A stretch of DNA of 10,972 bases, taken from positions 1-10,972 of the forward strand of contig JALGVQ010000089.1 in NCBI GenBank assembly GCA_025774615.1. Direction: 5' to 3'. The translations under genes were made by a program, and so were the position numbers. This stretch comes from a bacterium. Lineage in GTDB: Bacteria; Blakebacterota; Blakebacteria; Blakebacterales; Blakebacteraceae. Positions 1 to 10,538 of the stretch are shown here, in pieces. The notes beneath the pieces are model-generated. The model saw nothing but the letters and a program-made list of their open reading frames with translations. It was not told the origin of the DNA and ran no database searches. The stretch's first letter is position 1. Every line of letters starts with the position of its first letter.

Positions 1-1187
1 TGCCTGCTGTCCCTGACGCCGTTGACCTCCTCGGCCTTCTCGTAGGCGTTCAGGATCCAGTCGTTGGCCTTGGTGCCGATCGCGTGGATACCGATCTGGA
101 ACCCGGCTGCGTCAGAGGCCAGGATGCGGCGTTCCAGTTCATCGTACGGCATCATCGCCAGACCTGACTTGTCCGGCTCATCCTCGAACGGTTCGAAGAA
201 GAGGGCAGTACCCGATCCGAGCGTGCCGTCGATGAAGCCCTTCAGATACCCGAAGCGGATCCAGTTTCCCTCAGCAGGGAATCGCTTGCGCAGTTCATCG
301 TATCGCGCCAGAGCGTCCTGGTCATCTGTCAGCCTGCCGGCTACATCGATGCGGTAGGGAAGCCGACCCTCATCCAGCATGCTCTGGTAGAGGTCAGCGT
401 TGCCGCCGCCGGGATGCTGGATGCTCGTTACACCGAGTCGCATCGCCATCTCGTTGGCGGCATCCCATCCACGACGGGATCGTTCTGCCTGTTCCTCCGG
501 GGTGCGCTCGACCCTGACCGCGTTGTAATTGAGAAGGCCGCTGGCGGATTCCTTGAAGATCCCGGTGGCTTCTCCCGTGACCGGGTCGCGCTGGATCTCG
601 CCTCCGAAGGGATCAGGTGTGTCGTTGGTGATGCCCGAGGCTCTCAGGACGAAAGAGTTCACCAGCACCGAGTGCCCGTCGGCCCGGCTGAGGGCGACCG
701 GGTTGTTCGGCGCGACCTCGTCGAGGAGTTCCTTGGTCGGCCACTGCCTGTCGGTGAACATCTCGTGTTCCCAGTGCCCCCCCCGGATGAGTTCTCCCGG
801 CCTTACCTGAGCCACCCGCTCCCGGACCCGATCTGTGATGATGTTCTTATCGGTGATGTAGCGGAGTTCGATATAGTCGGGATTGAGTGAATTCCAGTGA
901 GCGTGGGCATCGTTGAAGCCGGGGATCACCAGCCGCCCGCCGGCGTCTATCACCTGCGTGGTTCCTTCCTCGATGTACTGCCCTATGCCCCGGTTCGAGG
1001 TCACACCGATGATCTCCTCACCGATCATCGCCACCGCCTGGGCTCTGCGGTTGTCGTGGTCGATGGTGACGACCTTCGCGTTGCGGATGACGAGATCCGC
1101 GGGCGGGCCGCTGTACTGTTGGGCGCAGGCGCTGCTCAACACGACCAGCATGGTCGCGATGCCCAGGAGAGATGTCCGTTTACGCAT
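1..1187 (-). CDS. Exported YtcJ-like amidohydrolase, C-terminus cut by window edge
   Basis: The minus frame is open from the ATG at 1187 to the left edge (395 codons), so the stop and probably about 150 C-terminal residues are missing; family members usually have roughly 550. Residues 1-21 look like an export signal (MRKR, hydrophobic stretch, then LSSAC). Cys21 could be a lipidation site, although Ser rather than Leu at -3 makes this imperfect. After DLVIRNAKVVTID (31-43) comes the metal-binding HxH in FNDAHAHW (H95, H97), the GFIDGTLGS segment (317-325) just after Lys316, and HAIGTKAN (368-375), all in the order seen in the YtcJ/amidohydrolase-3 family. A GGAGG ribosome site lies about 8 bases before the ATG. 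Such enzymes hydrolyse C-N bonds at a metal centre; the substrate cannot be told from sequence. It is 127 bp downstream of mtnP, so it could be the operon's tail or a separate unit. Confidence 0.9.
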   Translation of the reverse strand, partial: MRKRTSLLGIATMLVVLSSACAQQYSGPPADLVIRNAKVVTIDHDNRRAQAVAMIGEEIIGVTSNRGIGQYIEEGTTQVIDAGGRLVIPGFNDAHAHWNSLNPDYIELRYITDKNIITDRVRERVAQVRPGELIRGGHWEHEMFTDRQWPTKELLDEVAPNNPVALSRADGHSVLVNSFVLRASGITNDTPDPFGGEIQRDPVTGEATGIFKESASGLLNYNAVRVERTPEEQAERSRRGWDAANEMAMRLGVTSIQHPGGGNADLYQSMLDEGRLPYRIDVAGRLTDDQDALARYDELRKRFPAEGNWIRFGYLKGFIDGTLGSGTALFFEPFEDEPDKSGLAMMPYDELERRILASDAAGFQIGIHAIGTKANDWILNAYEKAEEVNGVRDSR

Positions 1188-1314: not shown

Positions 1315-2181
1315 TCAATCCCCGAGGTATTTCCCGATCAACAGGTCGAGGTCCTGCTTCATCTGGTCGGGGATCAGTCTTCGTGCGGTGATGATTCCAC
1401 GCTCGAGGGCGGTCGCGCATTCACACTCGCGGGTCTCGGGGATGCGGTGTGCCGCAGTCGACACGATCTCTTTCGCGGTCTCGACGTTCTTGAGCAGATT
1501 CGCGATGGCGATGTCGATCGTCACCGTCTCCTCAGTCTCGTGCCAGGTGTCGTAATCGGCCACACATGCCAGTGTGGCGTAACAGATCTCTGCCTCACGC
1601 GCCAGTTTGGCCTCGGGCAGAGCGGTCATACCGATGATGTCTGCACCCCAGGAACGATAGAGGTTCGATTCGGCCCTGGTGGAGAAGAGGGGACCCTCCA
1701 TGCAGATGTAGGTGCCGTCCATGTGGACCGTTGCGCCCGATTCGGATGCAGCCTGGTGCAGGATCCCGCTCAGGATGGGACAGAATGGATCGGCGAAAGA
1801 GAGGTGGGTCACAAGCCCGCCACCGAAGAAGGTGTTCACGCGGCTCTTCGTCCGATCGATGATCTGGTCGGGGATCACGAGATCGACGGGGTGGATATCT
1901 TCCTTGAGGCTTCCAACAGCGCTGACCGAGATGATCCATTCCACGCCGAGGGATTTCAGCGCGAATATGTTCGCCCTCACCGGGATCTCGGTCGGACTGT
2001 GATGGTGCCCGTGACCGTGGCGGGGAAGGAACGCAAGGGGCACGCCACCCAGCTCACCGAGCATGATCGTGTCGCTCGGTTCGCCGAACGGTGTGTCAGG
2101 ATTCACCTCCTCGATCCCGGTCAAACCCTCGATGTCATACAAACCGGTACCGCCGATGATGCCGATCCTTGCTTCCGTCAT
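1315..2181 (-). CDS. mtnP: S-methyl-5'-thioadenosine phosphorylase
   Basis: This 288-residue protein is a PNP/MTAP-family-2 phosphorylase of full normal length. It would split 5'-methylthioadenosine, the by-product of polyamine and other SAM-dependent reactions, with phosphate into adenine and 5-methylthioribose-1-phosphate in the cytoplasm. Visible motifs are the N-terminal phosphate loop IIGGTGLYD (8-16), PRHG (53-56), IPDQIIDRTK (103-112), MEGPLFSTRAES (161-172), GMTALPEAK (184-192) and ADYDTWHE (208-215). The Asp pair 209/211 matches the base-binding Asp residues of human MTAP and favours an adenine base over hypoxanthine. A His-rich run follows PRHG (H57, H59, H60, H61). The ATG has an AAGGA site 10 bases upstream, inside the end of mtnA, only 5 bp away. 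The neighbouring adenine deaminase supports MTA rather than methylthioinosine as substrate. Substrate choice remains an inference. Confidence 0.93.
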   Translation of the reverse strand: MTEARIGIIGGTGLYDIEGLTGIEEVNPDTPFGEPSDTIMLGELGGVPLAFLPRHGHGHHHSPTEIPVRANIFALKSLGVEWIISVSAVGSLKEDIHPVDLVIPDQIIDRTKSRVNTFFGGGLVTHLSFADPFCPILSGILHQAASESGATVHMDGTYICMEGPLFSTRAESNLYRSWGADIIGMTALPEAKLAREAEICYATLACVADYDTWHETEETVTIDIAIANLLKNVETAKEIVSTAAHRIPETRECECATALERGIITARRLIPDQMKQDLDLLIGKYLGD

Positions 2182-2186
2182 GGTAC

Positions 2187-3281
2187 TCAGGTCCTTTCCC
2201 GGTCGTGTTCCTCGAACTGTGTAGCCAGACCTTTATCGAATGGATCCCGGACAACTCCCCGCTCTGTGATGATCGCGGAAATGTACCGGTTGGGTGTCAC
2301 ATCGAAGGCCGGGTTCGCGCTCGTGACGCCGTCGAGAGTGATCAGGACATCACCGATCAGCGTTACCTCTTCGTGATCACGTTCCTCGATCGGGATCAGG
2401 TCGCCTGAGGCCAGTTTCTGGTCCACAGTGCTCAGCGGCGCCGCAACGTAGAAGGGTATGTCATGCTCACGAGCGAGTACTGCCGTGGTATAGGTACCGA
2501 TCTTGTTGGCGGTATCACCATTGGCCGCGATCCGGTCGGCGCCGACGATGACGGCGTCGATCTCTCCCCTGGCCATGAAGTGCCCCGCCATGTTGTCGCT
2601 GATCAGGGTGAAGGGGATGTCGTACCGGGTGAGTTCCCAGGCGGTGAGCTTTGCGCCCTGCAGTCTCGGTCTTGTCTCATCCACATACACATGGATATCC
2701 CGCCCACTCTCATGGACCGCGTGGATCACGCCGAGGGCGGTGCCGTAGCCGCCGGTCGCGATCGCTCCAGCGTTGCAGTGGGTAAGTACGCTGGCGCCGT
2801 CTTCGATCAGTTCGGCGCCATGTTCGCTGAGTGCGATGTCTGACTCGAAGGTCGCCCGGTCGATCTCACAGGCTTCCGCGATGAGTCGCTCGCGGATCGC
2901 CGGAATGTCCCCACCTCCTGCTCGTGCCTGTTCAGCCGCTCTCTGCATCCGGTCGAGTGCCCAGAAGAGGTTGACCGCGGTGGGTCGGGTCCCGGCAAGC
3001 AGATCGGATACCGGACGGAGGGCGTTGACGAAGGCGTCAACGTCATCGGCCTCCATCCTGGCGGCTCCCAGGGCTACGCCGTAGGCGGCCGCCATGCCGA
3101 TCGCGGGCGCGCCGCGAACCCTCATGCTGGTGATCGCTTCGGCCATCTCCCGATGGTCCCTGATCCCCACATAGACTTCCTCGTATGGGAGGCGGGTCTG
3201 GTCGAGCATCCTGATGACGGGAGGGTCTCCAGGATTCTTGCCGGCGATCCATTCGAGAGCTCTGAATCCGGGATCATTCAT
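2187..3281 (-). CDS. mtnA: Methylthioribose-1-phosphate isomerase
   Basis: This 364-residue protein is a full-length member of the eIF2B-alpha/MtnA family. It would convert methylthioribose-1-phosphate, the sugar product of MtnP, to methylthioribulose-1-phosphate. Family marks are RGAPAIG (56-62), [18 protein letters not shown] (167-184) with the presumed catalytic Cys169, [17 protein letters not shown] (201-217), [11 protein letters not shown] (246-256) with the presumed catalytic Asp249, NKIGTY (259-264), and a C-terminal NPAFDVTP (323-330). The eIF2B-related ribose-1,5-bisphosphate isomerases resemble it, but the Cys/Asp pair and the adjacent MTA phosphorylase argue for MtnA. Its ATG overlaps the ade stop by one base (TGATG), and the only SD-like match is a weak AGG about 12 bases upstream. 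Translation is therefore probably coupled to ade. Confidence 0.94.
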
Positions 3282-4981
3282 CAGTCGAACAGCCTGAATG
3301 CGTTCACGTCGACCAGTCCTTTATCTGTGAGTTTCAGAGCCGGGATCACCGGCAGTGCCAGAAAGGAGAGGGTGGCGAAGGGGTGGGGCATCACCGAGCC
3401 GAGTTCAGCCGCGATTCTCTTGAGTGTTTCATGCTTCTCGACTACGGTCTCGAGCGGCTTATCGGAGAGCAAGCCGGCGATCGGCAGAGGAAGTGAAGCG
3501 AGCACTGCTCCCCCGGCGGTTGCCACGAGTCCTCCACCAAGCCGTTCGACCTCCCTGATCGCTGTATGGATATCGGCGTCATTCGTACCGACCGCGATGA
3601 TGTTATGGGAGTCGTGGCCGATCGAAGACGCGAGCGCGCCCTTCGTGAGTCCCGTGCCCTTTACCATCGCGAGACCGATATTCCCGGATGCGTGGTGTCG
3701 TTCCACCACCACCAGCTTCGCGATGTCCCGTCCGGGGTCTGCGACGACCACTCCATCCGAGATCGATGGTTTTTCCTCCAGCCGGCCGGTTACGATCTGG
3801 TCGGGGATGATCTCGATGATCGGACGATCCGCCTGTTCAGCCGGGATACGGAGGTCTTCGACTGTGAAGGGTTTCACCCGCATCGTCCGTCGCATGGTAT
3901 CGTCAGCGTCACCAGATGGTGGAGGTGTGAAGAGCGGTTTTCCCTCCCTTGCGACCAGTTCGCCGTGGTGGTAGACCTGAAGCGCTTTGAAAGCGGAAAG
4001 ATCCTCGACAACCAGGAAGTTGGCGAAGTAACCGGGCGCGATCGCACCGACGCCTCGCAGGCCGAACCGCACAGCCGGGGTTATCGTCGCCATCTGGATT
4101 GTTCGTACCGGATCGAGTCCCAGTGCGATCGCCCTGCGAACGACCGCGTCGATGTCACCGTCACGCAGAAGGTCGGATGCACTCCGGTCGTCCACCACGA
4201 AGAGACAACGCGGCCAGGAGTGGTCGGTGACGAGCGGCAGGAGTGCTTCCAGGTTCTTCTCGGAGGATCCCTCCCTGATCATCAGGTACATACCTCGCCT
4301 GAGCTTTTCCCTGCCCTCTTCGAGGGTGGTCGATTCATGATCTGAATCGATCCCGGCGGCGATGTAGGCGTTGAGGTCCTTTCCGCCAAGTCCCGGCGCG
4401 TGCCCATCCAGCGCTCGTCCGCCCGCGACCCCGATCTTTCCGTGGACCATCTCATCGGAGTTGATGACTCCGGGGAAGTTCATGACCTCTCCCAGGCCGA
4501 TCGCTTCGTCCCAGGTGAGCGCCTCGGCGATGTCGTCGGCTGTGACCTCGGCCCCGGCAGTCTCCAGGTGAGTCGCCGGCACGCAGGATGGTGCCATGAG
4601 ATAGACATCGAGGGGGAGGGGTTCCCAGACATCGAGCATGTAACGGGCCCCCGGGAGTCCGGTCACGTTGGCGATCTCATGGAGGTCGGTCACAATTGCG
4701 GAGACCCCCCGGGGAACCACTACCTCGGCATAGCGTGCCGGGTGGAGCATCGAACTCTCGGGGTGGATGTGCCCGTTGATGAGGCCGGGGACCAGATGAC
4801 GTCCCTCAAGGTCGATCACCTCACCGGAATCCCGATAGTCACCGATTCCGGCTATCCGCCCATCGGAGAGAGCAACACTGCCCTCCTCGACCTCCCCGCT
4901 CAGGGTATTGACAATCCTGGCGTTCGTCAGGATCAGGTCGGCGGGCTGTTCCCCCCGGGCAACCCGGATCAGGTCGCTCAT
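3281..4981 (-). CDS. ade: Adenine deaminase
   Basis: The 566-residue product matches bacterial Ade (amidohydrolase superfamily) in length and motif order. It would deaminate adenine to hypoxanthine and ammonia in the cytoplasm. Seen in order: metal-binding GHIHPESSM (70-78), [11 protein letters not shown] (98-108), PSCVPAT (131-137), GEVMNFPGV (164-172), [15 protein letters not shown] (192-206), SDHES (213-217), VVDDR (262-266), [17 protein letters not shown] in the middle, and the Ade-specific C-terminal domain with [29 protein letters not shown] and [11 protein letters not shown]. These C-terminal motifs separate Ade from other amidohydrolases. The ATG overlaps the hpt stop (ATGA) and has a strong AAGGAG site 8 bases upstream, inside the hpt 3' end. 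Position between hpt and mtnA fits a role taking the adenine released by MtnP towards IMP. Confidence 0.95.
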
Positions 4982-5508
4982 TCGGGAATCTCCTTCACAT
5001 GGCAGATGTCCGGCAGGTTTCTGAACTGTTCATTGCAGTCGATCCCATACCCCACCACGAACTCATCATCTATGCGGAAACCGGTATAATTGATGGCGAC
5101 ATCAGCTTCCCGACGGGCGGTCTTGTCGATGAGAGCGCACAGTCTTACCGATGCAGGGTTGCGCTTGCGCAGGTCGTGCATGAAACGCCAGAGGGTGAGT
5201 CCTGTATCGACGATGTCCTCGACGACCAGGATGTCCCGTCCCTCGATCTGTTTCTCGAGCCCCTGGATCGTCTTCACCTTACGTGAGCTCTTCATCCCCG
5301 ATCCGTAGCTTGAGAGACGGACGAAATCGACTTCCACGGGTATCTCAAGTTGACGGATCAGATCGGCCAGAAAGACAAAGGACCCCTGCAGGATGCCGAC
5401 CAGGAGCGGCCTGGTGTCCCGGTAATCAGCGTCTATCTCACGGGCGATCCGCGCGACTGTCTCGCGGATCTCATCGCGGGTGAAGAGGATTTCCGGTTGT
5501 TCCGACAC
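4978..5508 (-). CDS. hpt: Hypoxanthine phosphoribosyltransferase
   Basis: This 176-residue protein has the length and motifs of a bacterial Hpt. It would join hypoxanthine (and perhaps guanine) to PRPP, giving IMP (or GMP). Motifs: GILQGSF (38-44, the cis-peptide loop), SSYGSGMKSS (66-75, flexible loop), the PRPP signature ILVVEDIVDTGLT (93-105) with Asp101 as the expected general base, LIDK (126-129) with the base-contacting Lys129, and VGYGID (152-157) followed by RNLPDI (163-168). The start is GTG rather than ATG: it has a well-placed GGAGG (5519-5523) about 10 bases upstream and the usual N-terminal length. It is the first gene of the hpt-ade-mtnA-mtnP operon and supplies the last step of adenine-to-IMP recovery. 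Confidence 0.94.
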   Translation of the reverse strand: MSEQPEILFTRDEIRETVARIAREIDADYRDTRPLLVGILQGSFVFLADLIRQLEIPVEVDFVRLSSYGSGMKSSRKVKTIQGLEKQIEGRDILVVEDIVDTGLTLWRFMHDLRKRNPASVRLCALIDKTARREADVAINYTGFRIDDEFVVGYGIDCNEQFRNLPDICHVKEIPE

Positions 5509-5542
5509 GTGGTTCCGCCTCCGTGTTGATTCGGGAATGCGG

Positions 5543-5576
5543 TCACCATTGTATGGTGAGGTATCGGGGGAGGCTA
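5543..5576 (-). promoter_or_regulatory. hpt: Candidate hpt-operon promoter with embedded inverted repeat
   Basis: A perfect 7-bp inverted repeat, TCACCAT-TGT-ATGGTGA on the plus strand (5543-5559), lies 35-51 bases upstream of the hpt GTG. On the minus strand its centre reads TACAAT (5553 down to 5548), a five-of-six match to the sigma-70 -10 box. The hexamer 17 bp upstream (TAGCCT, 5571-5576) is a poor -35. A repressor bound to the repeat would cover the -10 box, so an operator-over-promoter arrangement is plausible. There is no following U-run, so it is not a terminator for the upstream gene. The call is by eye and unproven. Confidence 0.4.
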
Positions 5577-5591
5577 CCCGTTCTTAGTCGT

Positions 5592-5611
5592 GGAGTATTT
5601 GGGAGTATTTG
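5592..5611. repeat. Perfect 10-bp tandem repeat upstream of hpt
   Basis: GGAGTATTTG occurs twice back to back (5592-5601 and 5602-5611), in the gap between the beta-propeller stop and the hpt start. It lies 84-103 bases upstream of the hpt GTG and upstream of the candidate promoter. Tandem sites one helical turn apart are typical of activator binding, but a short chance duplication is possible. Confidence 0.45.
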
Positions 5612-5620
5612 CGAGGCGCG

Positions 5621-6814
5621 TCAGTTCCCGTTCGTACCGGAGAGAACAGATATCACCAGATACGTATCGGCGTCCTCGTCATCATCGATCCGGATGAGGG
5701 CAGAACCGTCCTGTGTGAAGGTGATCGGGAGCGGCATGTCGTCGAGGTGTCCGAGATAGATTCCGTCATGATCGAAGAGGTCGAGTCTGGTCGTGCCAGG
5801 ATTCTCGGTGTTGGCAAGAACCCAGATACGTCCGAAGGGATCGGTCTTCAATCCTTCGATAGCCTGCCGCCGCTCGGCAAAGGGGTATTTTTCGAGGGAG
5901 GCGCGGGTGGCGGTGAACCGTTCACCGCTGCCGAATCCGAAACGGAACTGGTCGTTGAAGAACCAGTCCTTATCCCGTTGGGTCACCGTGAGATCTGGCG
6001 ATGGCGCGAACACCTCGCGGTGCAGACGGCCGGTAAGATCACGTTCTTCAAAATGGTAGTCGCCTCCCGTGACCACATGGATTCGACTGGTATCAGCGGA
6101 ATATGTCCAGTGGAGCCGGGGGGCGAACTGGGGAGGCCCCACGAAGATCATGGCCTGCCCTGTAGACGATCGGACTTCTATCTGCTGTTCCTTCTGGCCG
6201 GGCATCGTTGTAAGAGTGTCTTCGCTGCCCGATGAGAGATCAACCCTGAGGAGAAAGTGGTTCGGGATTATCTCACCAGGATTCTCGAAGTCCACATTGG
6301 TCTGAGTACTGATAAGAAGACCCGATTCATCCAGCGGGATGAACTCGTGCCACGCATATGAGCCCCACCGCGTGTCCCGGAGGTATTCCCCGGCAGTCGA
6401 ATACACCGAGAAACGCCGGTTCATGATATCGGCTATCCAGAGCTCATCTCCCGCCCGGACGATGGCGTGGGGGAATCGAAATTCCCCTGGTCCTTCTCCG
6501 CTCTGTCCGAAGTGGCGAAGGTGATTTCCCTGAAGGTCGACCTGGACGATCTCCAGGTTCCCACGATCGCAGATGAAGAATCCATCGTCCGCTCCCGCGA
6601 CTCCCGCGATGCTGTTGTAGATGTAATCGGCATCATCCCCCCACAGATCCCAGACCGCGAGGGTGTCGGCTGATAACAGGTAGTCAGGCAGGATGGAATG
6701 GGAAACACGTACGACCCCATCGGCAAGTGTTTCAACAGTCATCGTTTCCTGGCCCGGGCCACTCGTACAGCCGGCGGCGAGGGTCAGCAGTGATGTGATG
6801 ATCAGCTTTCTCAT
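5621..6814 (-). CDS. Six-bladed beta-propeller (NHL-like) lipoprotein
   Basis: The product has 397 residues if started at the ATG at 6814, which follows AGAGG at a good distance. The first residues, MRKLIITSLLTLAAGC, form a lipoprotein signal with a clear lipobox and Cys16. The frame stays open 47 codons further up, but that extension lacks a signal and buries the lipobox. The mature part contains repeated beta-propeller blades. Most telling is FGQSGEGPGEFRFPHAI (102-118), followed by GDELWIADIMNRRFSVYSTAG (122-142, NHL-like blade), and later GLKTDPFGRIWVLANTE and RLDLFDHDGIYLGHL near the C-terminus. Such proteins are frequent in Gemmatimonadota and Bacteroidota and are thought to bind partners or sugars at the cell envelope; no enzyme activity can be assigned. 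It is divergent from the outer-membrane barrel gene at 6989, which may hint at a shared envelope role. Confidence 0.85.
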   Translation of the reverse strand: MRKLIITSLLTLAAGCTSGPGQETMTVETLADGVVRVSHSILPDYLLSADTLAVWDLWGDDADYIYNSIAGVAGADDGFFICDRGNLEIVQVDLQGNHLRHFGQSGEGPGEFRFPHAIVRAGDELWIADIMNRRFSVYSTAGEYLRDTRWGSYAWHEFIPLDESGLLISTQTNVDFENPGEIIPNHFLLRVDLSSGSEDTLTTMPGQKEQQIEVRSSTGQAMIFVGPPQFAPRLHWTYSADTSRIHVVTGGDYHFEERDLTGRLHREVFAPSPDLTVTQRDKDWFFNDQFRFGFGSGERFTATRASLEKYPFAERRQAIEGLKTDPFGRIWVLANTENPGTTRLDLFDHDGIYLGHLDDMPLPITFTQDGSALIRIDDDEDADTYLVISVLSGTNGN

Positions 6815-6988: not shown

Positions 6989-8089
6989 ATGCGACTCGTT
7001 TCCAGAGGCTGTTTCTTCCTCAGCCTGCTGATCATCCTGCCTGGTGTATCTGTCTGTCTGGGGCAGGATTCCGGTGAGGCGACTATCGAACCGATGCCGA
7101 TACTCATGTACGACACCGATGTCGGATTCGGATATGGAGCCAAGGTGTTCCTGCTGGGTTCTCTGGGAAGGAACGAGTCATTCGACCTGATCGTGTTCAA
7201 CAGCACCGGTGGTGAACGCTGGTATAAACTGGTGTTCTCCCTGCCTGATTTTGAGTTGCGCCAGGGCACGGTCTATCCCTTCTCGGTGGATCTCTCTCTC
7301 GCATATAACACATTTAAAAAGAACAGATTCTTCGGTATCGGTAACCAGACCAGGTTCTCCGATGAGGAGCGGTATACCAAAGAGTTATCAGACGTGAGAC
7401 TCACCTTCAGTCGGGGTTTCACACCGCAGATGGTGGGTCAGGTGGGATTCCACTACCGTACGGTCAGAAACTACAATTTCGAGATCGGGAGCATCTTCGA
7501 GAACCTGGCTCCCCTGAACAGGTCTCGGGTTACCAACACCTCGATCTTCGCCAACTTCCGATATGACACACGTGACAGTTTCATCAACCCATCACACGGA
7601 ATCGTGCTGCAGGGGGAGGTGGAACATATTCCCGATGCCGATTCGAATGACGTCGGATACACCCGCTACGCAGCCTGGTTCCAGTATTACCAGGTGCTGG
7701 TGAAACCAGGTGTCGTGTTCGCCCTCCGGGCGATTGGACAGGACCTGGAGGGTGATGACCTTCCGGTGCAGGTGCTTCTGTCGATCGGGGGCGTCAACAC
7801 CATGCGGGGGATGGCGCAGGACCGATTCCTCGATTCTGCCTCAGCGCTTATGAATGCCGAGGTCCGGTTCCCGCTCTACCGGCGTCTGGGGGGAGTGGTC
7901 GGATTCGATGCCGGCAAGGTCTGGAACATGTCACGTAAGTTCGATCTCGAGAGGTGGGCGAGTAACCTCGCACTGGGGCTCCGGTTTTATATGGAGACGT
8001 TCGTGGTACGAGTGGATATAGGGTTCGGGCAGGATGCCTTCGGAGAGAAGAACACCGGGTTCTACTTCAACTTCGGGCACCTTTTCTGA
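6989..8089 (+). CDS. Omp85/BamA-family outer-membrane beta-barrel protein (D15-like)
   Basis: This 366-residue protein has an N-terminal signal peptide (hydrophobic stretch about 8-24, likely cleavage just before Gln26) and then alternating beta-strand segments to a C-terminal Phe, as in outer-membrane barrels. Two Omp85 marks are visible: FRYDTRDSFINPSHG (190-204), matching the DTRD..NP..G strand motif, and IGGVNTMRGMAQDRF (266-280), which corresponds to the loop-6 (V/I)RG(F/Y) motif, here MRGM. FPLYRRLGGVVGFDAGKVW (294-312) is also typical. Only about 50 residues precede the barrel, with no POTRA repeats, so it is a stand-alone surface-antigen-type barrel rather than BamA itself. Candidate roles are substrate export or lipid/protein insertion; none can be fixed from sequence. 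The ATG follows GAGG 8 bases upstream. Its stop is 18 bp from the stop of the convergent aminotransferase gene. Confidence 0.87.
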   Translation: MRLVSRGCFFLSLLIILPGVSVCLGQDSGEATIEPMPILMYDTDVGFGYGAKVFLLGSLGRNESFDLIVFNSTGGERWYKLVFSLPDFELRQGTVYPFSVDLSLAYNTFKKNRFFGIGNQTRFSDEERYTKELSDVRLTFSRGFTPQMVGQVGFHYRTVRNYNFEIGSIFENLAPLNRSRVTNTSIFANFRYDTRDSFINPSHGIVLQGEVEHIPDADSNDVGYTRYAAWFQYYQVLVKPGVVFALRAIGQDLEGDDLPVQVLLSIGGVNTMRGMAQDRFLDSASALMNAEVRFPLYRRLGGVVGFDAGKVWNMSRKFDLERWASNLALGLRFYMETFVVRVDIGFGQDAFGEKNTGFYFNFGHLF

Positions 8090-8107
8090 AGCAGGCTTCC
8101 GGCTTCG

Positions 8108-9547
8108 CTACATACTCACATAACCATTATGGAACGTGATCCACTCGGGCAGGACCTCTTCGAGCATCTCTTTTGGAGGCAGGAACGCGATACGCAGGTG
8201 CTGGGTGCCAGGCTTCTGTCCGAATCCCGAACCGTTGACGGTCACCAGGCCGGTGGCTTCGAGCAGGGCCATGCAGTAATCGAAGTCAGTAGTGCCTTCA
8301 GGCAGCCCGTTCAACCGCGGGAAATGATAGAGCGCGCCGATCCGTCCGAATGATTCCACGCCCGCCATCTCTTTGAACGATTCTCTGACCATCACAGCCT
8401 TCTCGTAGAGATCAGACAGGATCGCTTCCTTCTCGGCAGCATATTTTGCCCACGGTTCGCTTCCCTCCTCGGGCGGGTTGATCACCGTATACATGAGTGC
8501 CTGCCCAACCGTGTTGGAGCAGAGCCGTACCGAAGCCTGCTTGAGCAACAGCTCCATGAAGGAGATATCCGACCCTTCGACTTCGGGAGCGTTCCGTGCT
8601 TCGACGTAGCCGCCCCGATGACCACATTCTCCGTAGAATCCCTTCGAAGTGCTGTGGAGACTGAAGAGGGTGACGTCTTCCTCACCCACGAGTTTCGCGA
8701 ATGAAGTCCAGTCAGCCCCGTAGAGGTTCTCCTGATAGACCTCATCAGCAAGGATCGCCAAACCGCGCGATTGGGCGAACGAGACCACTTCGCGCCCACT
8801 CTTCTCATCCAGTATCGCGCCGGTCGGGTTCCCTGGATTGATGACGACGATTGCCCGCACGTTCACGCCGTCCTTCACTGCTTTCTCGTATGATTCTTCG
8901 AGCACTGAGCGGTCCAGGCACCAGTCGCAGTCCTCGTCAGGGTAGTAATCGATCTGCGTACCACCGCACCGGGCGATGGTGGCCGAGTAAATGGGATATT
9001 GCGGGATCGGGATCATGATCCCATCCGAAGGATTGGTGATCATCATCTCCAGGATGAGCCGGACACCTTCGCTGGCCCCCTCGGTGAGGAAGATGCTGTC
9101 GGGGTCGGCGGGGATCAGCCCTGCGGCTGAAACGCCATCCCGCCGATCGATGAACCGGGAGATCGCTTCTCTGATGAAGAGTGGCCCGTGGCTCTCGGTA
9201 TAGGCTCCCATGCCAGCCGGCCATTGGTTGAGCATGTTCTCCACATAGTCGAGAACGTACTCGGAGACGAGATCCTCTTCCCGGAGTTCATCGGCTATAG
9301 CTGGAGTATTTTTCAGAATGCGATTGAATTTTTTCTCGCGATCAAGCCGGGAGGGTTCCTCCAGCAGGGCCACGACCTGACGATGGAAGGTGATCGCCGG
9401 CTGACCAAGCGCCTGCGGATTGCCGATGTTGCAGGGGATGATCCGGCGTCCTTCACGCTGCATGACCGCGGCGTGTTGAGGAATCGGTCCTCTGACGGCG
9501 TATTCCATCTCAATGACATGCGGGTTGATCGGCATGCGAGCCGGCAT
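8108..9547 (-). CDS. Alanine aminotransferase, eukaryote-type (class I/II PLP enzyme)
   Basis: The 479-residue protein closely resembles animal and plant alanine aminotransferases rather than the usual bacterial AlaA/AlaC type. It would exchange the amino group between alanine plus 2-oxoglutarate and pyruvate plus glutamate, with PLP. Motifs: NPHVIEMEYAVRGPI (8-22), CNIGNPQALGQPAITFHRQV (39-58), LTEGASEGV (154-162), PIPQYPIYSAT (180-190), INPGNPTG (237-244), LADEVYQENLYG (266-277), HSTSKGFYGECGHRGGYVE (298-316) with Lys302 as the PLP Schiff-base lysine, and GSGFGQKPGTQHLRIAFLPP near the end. Compared with my memory of human ALT, residues about 66-108 hold an extra charged helical segment of roughly 20 residues. 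The ATG has GGGAGGG about 6 bases upstream. The operon four genes away belongs to methionine/purine recovery, but nothing in the sequence ties this enzyme to it. Confidence 0.92.
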   Translation of the reverse strand: MPARMPINPHVIEMEYAVRGPIPQHAAVMQREGRRIIPCNIGNPQALGQPAITFHRQVVALLEEPSRLDREKKFNRILKNTPAIADELREEDLVSEYVLDYVENMLNQWPAGMGAYTESHGPLFIREAISRFIDRRDGVSAAGLIPADPDSIFLTEGASEGVRLILEMMITNPSDGIMIPIPQYPIYSATIARCGGTQIDYYPDEDCDWCLDRSVLEESYEKAVKDGVNVRAIVVINPGNPTGAILDEKSGREVVSFAQSRGLAILADEVYQENLYGADWTSFAKLVGEEDVTLFSLHSTSKGFYGECGHRGGYVEARNAPEVEGSDISFMELLLKQASVRLCSNTVGQALMYTVINPPEEGSEPWAKYAAEKEAILSDLYEKAVMVRESFKEMAGVESFGRIGALYHFPRLNGLPEGTTDFDYCMALLEATGLVTVNGSGFGQKPGTQHLRIAFLPPKEMLEEVLPEWITFHNGYVSM

Positions 9548-9587
9548 CCGGGGTCCCTCCCTGGGCAGGGGGTACGTGTCCGATCAG

Positions 9588-9616
9588 CAGATCACGATCT
9601 GACATGTGGAAATATG
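9588..9616 (-). promoter_or_regulatory. Inverted repeat and possible -10 box upstream of alanine aminotransferase
   Basis: CAGATC-AC-GATCTG (9588-9601) is a perfect 6-bp inverted repeat with a 2-base centre, 41-54 bases upstream of the aminotransferase ATG. Just upstream of it on the minus strand CATATT (9616 down to 9611) resembles a -10 box, which would put the repeat near the transcription start, a normal place for an operator. No good -35 hexamer sits 16-18 bp further up. The 112-bp gap from the upstream gene suggests the aminotransferase may have its own promoter. Confidence 0.3.
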
Positions 9617-9659
9617 TTGATGACAGAAAAATAAGCACACAACGCAGGCGAAGGAACCA

Positions 9660-10538
9660 TTACCGGTGCCTGAATCGTACCCGGATACCTGCCATGGGGA
9701 TCATGTCCGATCCCCCGTTCCGCGTATGGGTCCTGATAATTGAGAAGAAGAGGGAGGGATCTACTTGAGACTGTTTCACCCGACAGAGGATCATTGTATC
9801 GGTAACATTCGCAAGCCAGGCAGCCACGATATTCATAACCCGGCGTCGTTTCATCTCTTTACGCCAACGTGGAAGGAACACCTCATAGTCAGGCTGTGGG
9901 ATGTCCGGTTCCCTGACAATAGCTCTCACGAACAGTCCTGCGAAAAAGAGTGCATGCAGGGGCTTTCCAGCCATCAGCTGACCGGTGCCCGGGATGACCA
10001 TGGAATACATGATCGGTGTATCCGATGGAGTGAGAACTCGTGGCCTGCTGATCGCCTGTGCCATGTGTATGACACCTTCTCGCACTTCCGTTTCATTAAG
10101 AAATGATCGTGACTCAGCCGCGATTATGGTCCTGTCATCGACTCCATAGAGGATGAGTGAGACCAGGAATTCTCCGGACGATTTTCGTGATACACCTCCG
10201 CCGACAAGAAATGCAGCACCGACCTCTTGAGCATAAGAGTCCATCTCGATCGGGCGGGAGCAGGAGGATATCAGTTCTCTCCTGGTCATCCCCTGGCCGA
10301 CCAGTGTGAGTTCCACACCGCGCCTGAGAACAAACGGTCGCATGGTTGTAATTATTGATTCATAGAGGTGGGCTGACAGTGCGCTGTCGGCTGTGGAACT
10401 TATCAGCGGCAGCACTGCCACCGTTCTGCTGCTGGTGAATTGCGCACAGATCCCGACAGGCGTGATCAGCATCAGGAGCAACAGGAATATGAATAATACT
10501 GAACCTATAGACTTCATCATGGGGATAAGACGAAACAC
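9660..10538 (-). CDS. Exported protein: FlgO/TolB-like domain plus DUF5683-like membrane segment
   Basis: I do not recognise a named gene. The 292-residue product starts with a hydrophobic export signal (about 12-32, possible cleavage near Cys31-Ala32). Residues 38-165 resemble the FlgO/TolB N-terminal/CsgG-type fold: TVAVLPL (39-45), a helix containing SAHLYESIITTM (55-66), VELTLVGQGM (75-84), AFLVGGGVSR (109-118), then strands on to a helical MAQAIS (159-164). The next part carries SMVIPGTGQLMAGKPLHALF (179-198) with a following hydrophobic helix, and WLANVTDTMI (241-250); these resemble the PGLGQxYNG and NxxDA motifs of DUF5683 membrane proteins. The start is uncertain: GTG at 10538 is the first possible start, with only a distant GGAG 17 bases upstream. 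ATG at 10520 or 10517 would give a more normal signal peptide but has no Shine-Dalgarno match. Location is periplasm or inner membrane; function is unknown. Confidence 0.7.
   Translation of the reverse strand: MFRLIPMMKSIGSVLFIFLLLLMLITPVGICAQFTSSRTVAVLPLISSTADSALSAHLYESIITTMRPFVLRRGVELTLVGQGMTRRELISSCSRPIEMDSYAQEVGAAFLVGGGVSRKSSGEFLVSLILYGVDDRTIIAAESRSFLNETEVREGVIHMAQAISRPRVLTPSDTPIMYSMVIPGTGQLMAGKPLHALFFAGLFVRAIVREPDIPQPDYEVFLPRWRKEMKRRRVMNIVAAWLANVTDTMILCRVKQSQVDPSLFFSIIRTHTRNGGSDMIPMAGIRVRFRHR

Follow-up and report, generated by a model that had tools for sequence, protein, structure and literature searches.

The adenine freed from 5'-methylthioadenosine (MTA) or 5'-deoxyadenosine normally goes back to AMP via Apt. 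A second route from adenine, known in B. subtilis (AdeC) and E. coli (Ade), leads through Ade and Hpt to IMP by the same two reactions considered here; those organisms possess apt as well, and their genes for the two steps are not known to be joined, whereas here ade and hpt are coupled and a genome search for apt came up empty. On the sugar side, a close parallel is the DHAP shunt of Rhodospirillum rubrum and some E. coli strains (MtnP or MtnN/MtnK, MtnA and Ald2), which handles MTA and 5'-deoxyadenosine alike (PMC10986504). The E. coli shunt cluster, mtnK-mtnA-ald2, contains neither ade nor hpt (PMC10986504). MTA-fed R. rubrum and E. coli accumulate hypoxanthine (PMC4958253; PMC10986504), so cells of this kind are known to convert adenine to hypoxanthine, although R. 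rubrum has no adenine deaminase by homology. The Pseudomonas aeruginosa route, comprising an MTA deaminase and MtiP, ends in hypoxanthine and 5-methylthioribose-1-phosphate (MTR-1-P; PMC6302742); it deaminates before phosphorolysis, whereas here the free base would be deaminated afterwards. Finally, Dehalococcoides mccartyi carries a SAM-cycle cluster with core-MetE (cbdbA476-481, PMC7005905), in a report that makes no mention of mtnA, methylthio compounds, adenine deaminase or hypoxanthine. A literature search, covering few subscription papers, found none in which a single operon combines adenine deaminase with MTA phosphorylase and Hpt. Each enzyme is known in its own right, and the combination described below is uncommon, a modest variant of known salvage pathways.

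The window, the whole 10,972-nucleotide stretch of DNA analyzed here, corresponds to contig C128 of a 3.3 Mb genome that is 82% complete. Its relevant features, and the one feature of a related genus with which they are compared, are as follows.

6955-5621: gene for a beta-propeller-like protein, upstream of hpt and ~110 bp from it
5508-4978, minus strand: hpt, 176 aa, GTG start, intact open reading frame
4981-3281, minus strand: ade, 566 aa, intact open reading frame
3281-2187, minus strand: mtnA, 364 aa, intact open reading frame
2181-1315, minus strand: mtnP, 288 aa, intact open reading frame
1314-1188, minus strand: gene-free gap of 127 bp 3' of mtnP, whose matching place in locus L141 of the related genus holds a class II aldolase gene
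3-1187, minus strand: gene for a lipoprotein-like Amidohydro_3 protein 3' of mtnP, starting at 1187
L141 (genome G002, contig C200), ~270-941 on the reverse complement, reverse strand: gene for a class II aldolase, its start overlapping the stop codon of mtnP (TAATG)

The sequence-only reading had placed hpt, ade, mtnA and mtnP on one strand with ATGA, TGATG and 5-bp junctions, and exactly this arrangement is seen. Read from the sequence, the hpt/ade junction is GAATGAGC (ATGA overlap), the ade/mtnA junction is GACTGATGAAT (TGATG overlap), and mtnA and mtnP are separated by 5 bp (TGA-GTACC-ATG). The four genes are predicted, from their spacing only, to be co-transcribed; the junctions fit this, as does the absence of terminator-like sites on the operon strand. 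No sigma-70-type promoter was found directly before hpt (5508-6267), where promoter-like matches are no more frequent than in shuffled sequence. A shared riboswitch was considered and dropped, as an Rfam search returned no match in the window or in seven related loci. The amidohydrolase gene at 3-1187 probably lies outside the operon.

Families were named with NCBIfam equivalog models at their curated cut-offs together with binding-site motifs, and the roles given to individual residues follow established knowledge of these families. All four operon proteins exceed the cut-offs of the expected models and keep their functional residues, which supports the enzyme names proposed earlier. Ade scores 574.7 bits against TIGR01178 (cut-off 472.5) and combines PF01979 with the C-terminal Ade domain PF13382; its metal-site motifs NGHIHPE, TDLHE, GEVMN, DGHAP, SDHEST and VVDDR align with the solved Ade2 structure 3nqb (amidohydrolase fold). 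MtnA scores 422.6 bits against TIGR00512 (cut-off 279) and 225.9 bits against TIGR00511, below the cut-off of 314.1, and its best solved relative is 1t9k (E 3e-105). These model scores mark it as a predicted MTR-1-P isomerase and speak against a ribose-1,5-bisphosphate isomerase. The operon-encoded Hpt (202.6 bits against TIGR01203, cut-off 150) contains the PRPP motif VEDIVDTGLT at residues 96 to 105, the base-binding Lys129, and F150/V151. Its residues are typical of a 6-oxopurine phosphoribosyltransferase, the predicted activity, and both Lys129 and VEDIVDTGLT are kept in nearly all ade-linked Hpt copies.

MtnP belongs to PF01048, the superfamily that also contains methylthioinosine phosphorylase, and the P. 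aeruginosa methylthioinosine route (PMC6302742) offers a precedent for the reading that MtnP acts as a methylthioinosine or general purine nucleoside phosphorylase, freeing hypoxanthine directly and leaving Ade with some other role. The model scores point the other way: MtnP reaches 319.9 bits against TIGR01694, the model for MTA phosphorylase (cut-off 274.85), and 216 bits on the methylthioinosine model, under its cut-off of 223. Furthermore, residues 208 to 213 (ADYDTW) retain the Asp-x-Asp motif that aligns with TDYD/TDFD of solved MTA phosphorylases, residues which we take to form the adenine pocket in place of a 6-oxopurine pocket. With the score below the cut-off and the pocket motif different, the methylthioinosine assignment was rejected, and a phosphorylase of that kind is very improbable here. 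The residues of MtnP are typical of an adenine-releasing phosphorylase, its predicted activity, and the earlier naming of MtnP as an MTA phosphorylase type is supported by scores and pocket alike.

The bacterial hpt gene usually lies between tilS and ftsH, and a second, canonical copy is found in exactly this setting in the window's genome (tilS-hpt-ftsH, locus L003, flanking genes named by eye). This rules out the operon copy as the only Hpt of the genome; the linked gene counts as an extra copy because of this separate tilS-hpt-ftsH gene. In an Hpt tree, built by a quick method and with many weak forks, the operon copy falls among Hpt proteins whose genes are linked to ade, well away from the one encoded between tilS and ftsH. 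It thus looks like a dedicated paralogue. The other phosphoribosyltransferases recognized by eye from the sequences in this genome are PyrR, ribose-phosphate pyrophosphokinase, a ComF-like protein and PurF. Separately, at five loci (L035, L037, L044, L065 and L068) a divergent second hpt-like gene precedes the ade-linked hpt, and four of these extra genes form a clade of their own in the Hpt tree.

Genomic neighborhood comparison reveals that the arrangement is a Dehalococcoidia-type cluster and is not peculiar to the window's genome. All four of the phylum's genomes, which represent two genera, have the order hpt-ade-mtnA. Behind mtnA, both the window and G002 have mtnP; the contigs of the remaining two genomes break off within mtnA. 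For G002, mtnP is assembled from contigs C202 (first part) and C200 (end), which are treated as neighbors since together they make one mtnP, without a proven overlap. In Dehalococcoidia (Chloroflexota), hpt directly precedes ade at nearly all loci, usually within ~30 bp, and the full hpt-ade-mtnA-mtnP order occurs at five Chloroflexota loci (L020, L021, L022, L025 and L026). The four-gene order, for which a comparison across related genomes had been proposed, is therefore conserved as far as the contigs reach and recurs in a second phylum; on this sequence comparison the operon is more than a chance assembly. Between ade and mtnA, three of the five Chloroflexota loci carry a small class I methyltransferase-like gene (L022:7711-8259, L025:7692-8255 and L026:6331-6873), and L021 has an 82-codon frame. 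A core-MetE-like gene, named by eye, follows mtnP in L021, L022, L025 and L026; the L025 copy matches no Pfam or NCBIfam model. The relatives of the window's operon in this respect resemble the D. mccartyi SAM-cycle cluster, but core-MetE is missing at the matching place in the window and in G002.

Two further observations concern individual loci. In L026, two genes between mtnA and mtnP (8074-10078) resemble, by eye, a three-Cys-motif partner protein and a radical SAM protein, possibly a mobile or defense insert. The hpt-ade pairs of L038 and L040, from records titled Deltaproteobacteria, are nested in the Dehalococcoidia clade, through either transfer or mis-binning.

In the Ade tree, the proteins of the window's phylum stand beside L019-L021, inside the hpt-linked clade (support 100/99) and far from the ade of other phyla. 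The simplest reading suggests that the operon probably passed horizontally between Dehalococcoidia and the window's phylum, with Dehalococcoidia the likelier donor because most of the clade is theirs. Misbinned contigs are a less likely explanation, since four genomes from two genera agree and since a homologous amidohydrolase gene lies downstream of mtnP in both the window and G002.

The same comparison bears on whether the four genes work together. In most Dehalococcoidia, mtnA-mtnP lies away from hpt-ade, often beside core-MetE: many hpt-ade genomes have mtnP apart from ade and next to a core-MetE-like gene, a neighbor present at 17 of the 26 mtnP loci examined from hpt-ade genomes. For this reason a link between hpt-ade and MtnP is not a given, which weighs against a joint salvage function. 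The locus could then be two independent modules side by side, hpt-ade serving adenine salvage in general, whatever the source (uptake or RNA turnover, for example), and mtnA-mtnP serving nucleoside phosphorolysis, with no joint function; the solitary hpt-ade pairs of most Dehalococcoidia and the frequent pairing of mtnP with core-MetE speak for it. Against it, several lineages share the order of all four genes, with junctions that overlap or lie close together, and nearly every hpt-ade genome has an MTA phosphorylase (33 of 34, linked or not, with one copy split in two pieces), a co-presence that fits a link between adenine release and hpt-ade. We regard two unconnected modules as unlikely, and a joint salvage operon as the better account.

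The central proposal of the sequence-only reading was that the purine is recovered as IMP through Ade and Hpt, bypassing Apt, and a genome search for apt was set as its check. The apt model has no match in the window's genome (82% complete), and none of the phylum's four genomes has apt over the cut-off, each single absence being weak because the relatives are 63-85% complete and the window's genome 82%. Across a wider set, apt is present in 1 of 34 genomes with hpt-linked ade versus 12 of 13 whose ade has no hpt linked to it (Fisher p 3e-9), an anti-association confounded by shared ancestry, as the 34 are mostly Dehalococcoidia and thus lineages related to one another. A class sample was also drawn, comprising 197 genomes from the class to which G006, a Dehalococcoidia record, belongs: apt exceeds the cut-off in 92 of the 197. 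The sample included 11 genomes already known to have hpt-ade, and apt passed in none of these; the remainder thus gives 92 of 186, to be set against 1 of 34 (p 6e-8, uncorrected for phylogeny). Further hpt-ade genomes may be hidden among the 186, and these would widen the contrast. One genome, G026, carries both apt and the hpt-ade pair, which counts against the replacement. With apt in none of the phylum's four genomes, in 1 of 34 hpt-ade genomes and in about half of the other genomes of the class, the bypass of apt by hpt-ade is well supported by comparison.

The sugar branch is a weaker part of the picture and, in this genome, incomplete. The window's genome contains a single PF00596 protein, a RhaD-like class II aldolase encoded beside rhamnose-isomerase-like and sugar-transporter genes. 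It scores 27.5 bits against the MtnB model TIGR03328 (cut-off 137), and both this score, far below the cut-off, and its rhamnose/sugar-gene setting rule it out as MtnB; no MtnB-like gene was found in this genome (82% complete). In the window, no class II aldolase lies beside mtnP, and the 127-bp gap after mtnP, considered as a possible aldolase remnant, was dropped because it holds no notable open frame. From its gene content, the sugar branch in the window's genome is predicted to end at methylthioribulose-1-phosphate, the product of MtnA. Compared with the DHAP shunt, the cluster shares the order of MtnP and MtnA, predicted to act on MTA or 5'-deoxyadenosine, but has its own adenine-to-IMP branch (ade, hpt) and, within the window, no aldolase. 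In the related genus, G002 has the class II aldolase gene after mtnP, and a gene homologous to the amidohydrolase gene of the window comes next. This aldolase is covered by no specific family model and has no solved relative by sequence; although not assignable to Ald2, it makes a good candidate DHAP-shunt-type aldolase.

The nucleoside itself is another weaker part of the earlier proposal. MTA commonly arises when polyamines are made from decarboxylated SAM, whereas 5'-deoxyadenosine is a product of radical SAM enzymes. The presence of MTA phosphorylase in 33 of 34 hpt-ade genomes fits a tie between adenine release and hpt-ade, but AdoMet decarboxylase (speD) is absent from all four genomes of the phylum, each incomplete (63-85%), and none of the four has a speE over the cut-off, hence no true speE. 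MTA from polyamine synthesis is accordingly doubtful in the window's phylum, and 5'-deoxyadenosine is at least as likely a substrate. Because speD is absent, speE falls short of its cut-off and the DHAP shunt uses both compounds, the substrate is read as MTA and/or 5'-deoxyadenosine.

A narrower form of this reading, compatible with it, takes the operon as mainly devoted to 5'-deoxyadenosine from radical SAM enzymes, with MTA minor; MtnP and MtnA would process compounds of the 5-deoxyribose series in the manner of the DHAP shunt, and an aldolase encoded elsewhere or beside mtnP would finish the sugar. The missing common source of MTA, the acceptance of both nucleosides by the DHAP shunt (PMC10986504) and the class II aldolase gene after mtnP at TAATG in the related genus (L141) favor it. 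On the other hand, AdoMet decarboxylase is present in most of the tested Dehalococcoidia genomes carrying the operon or the pair, which places the origin of the cluster probably where MTA is made; other enzymes can yield MTA too; the window lacks the aldolase; and the aldolase that is found is below the MtnB cut-off. 5'-Deoxyadenosine may thus be the main substrate, a possibility that falls slightly short of an even chance.

Taken as a whole, the best explanation, which we hold with considerable though not full confidence, is an apt-replacing salvage operon of Dehalococcoidia type, probably exchanged horizontally. In apt-less bacteria it would salvage both the purine and the sugar of 5'-deoxy-type adenine nucleosides, whether MTA, 5'-deoxyadenosine or both. 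MtnP would convert the nucleoside and phosphate to adenine and a 5-substituted ribose-1-phosphate, Ade would turn adenine into hypoxanthine, and the dedicated Hpt would join hypoxanthine with PRPP to give IMP, so that the hpt-ade pair takes the place of apt, while MtnA would isomerize the sugar phosphate. Gene content, order, family membership and conservation are read directly from the sequence, as is the failure to detect apt; the catalytic activities, the co-transcription and the nucleoside used are what we infer from them. A more elaborate version, which we offer tentatively and consider rather unlikely in its entirety, combines an apt replacement by hpt-ade, spread horizontally within a nucleoside-salvage operon, with a shift to radical-SAM 5'-deoxyadenosine in the window's speD-less lineage and, in one genus, with the adjacent class II aldolase as a new aldolase for methylthioribulose-1-phosphate or 5-deoxyribulose-1-phosphate.

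A lineage-wide swap of Apt for Ade and Hpt would send all of the purine via IMP, from which GMP as well as AMP can be reached, at the cost of one ammonia and of the energy for remaking AMP. Such a swap would account for the handling of adenine in apt-less Dehalococcoidia and in the small phylum to which the window belongs.
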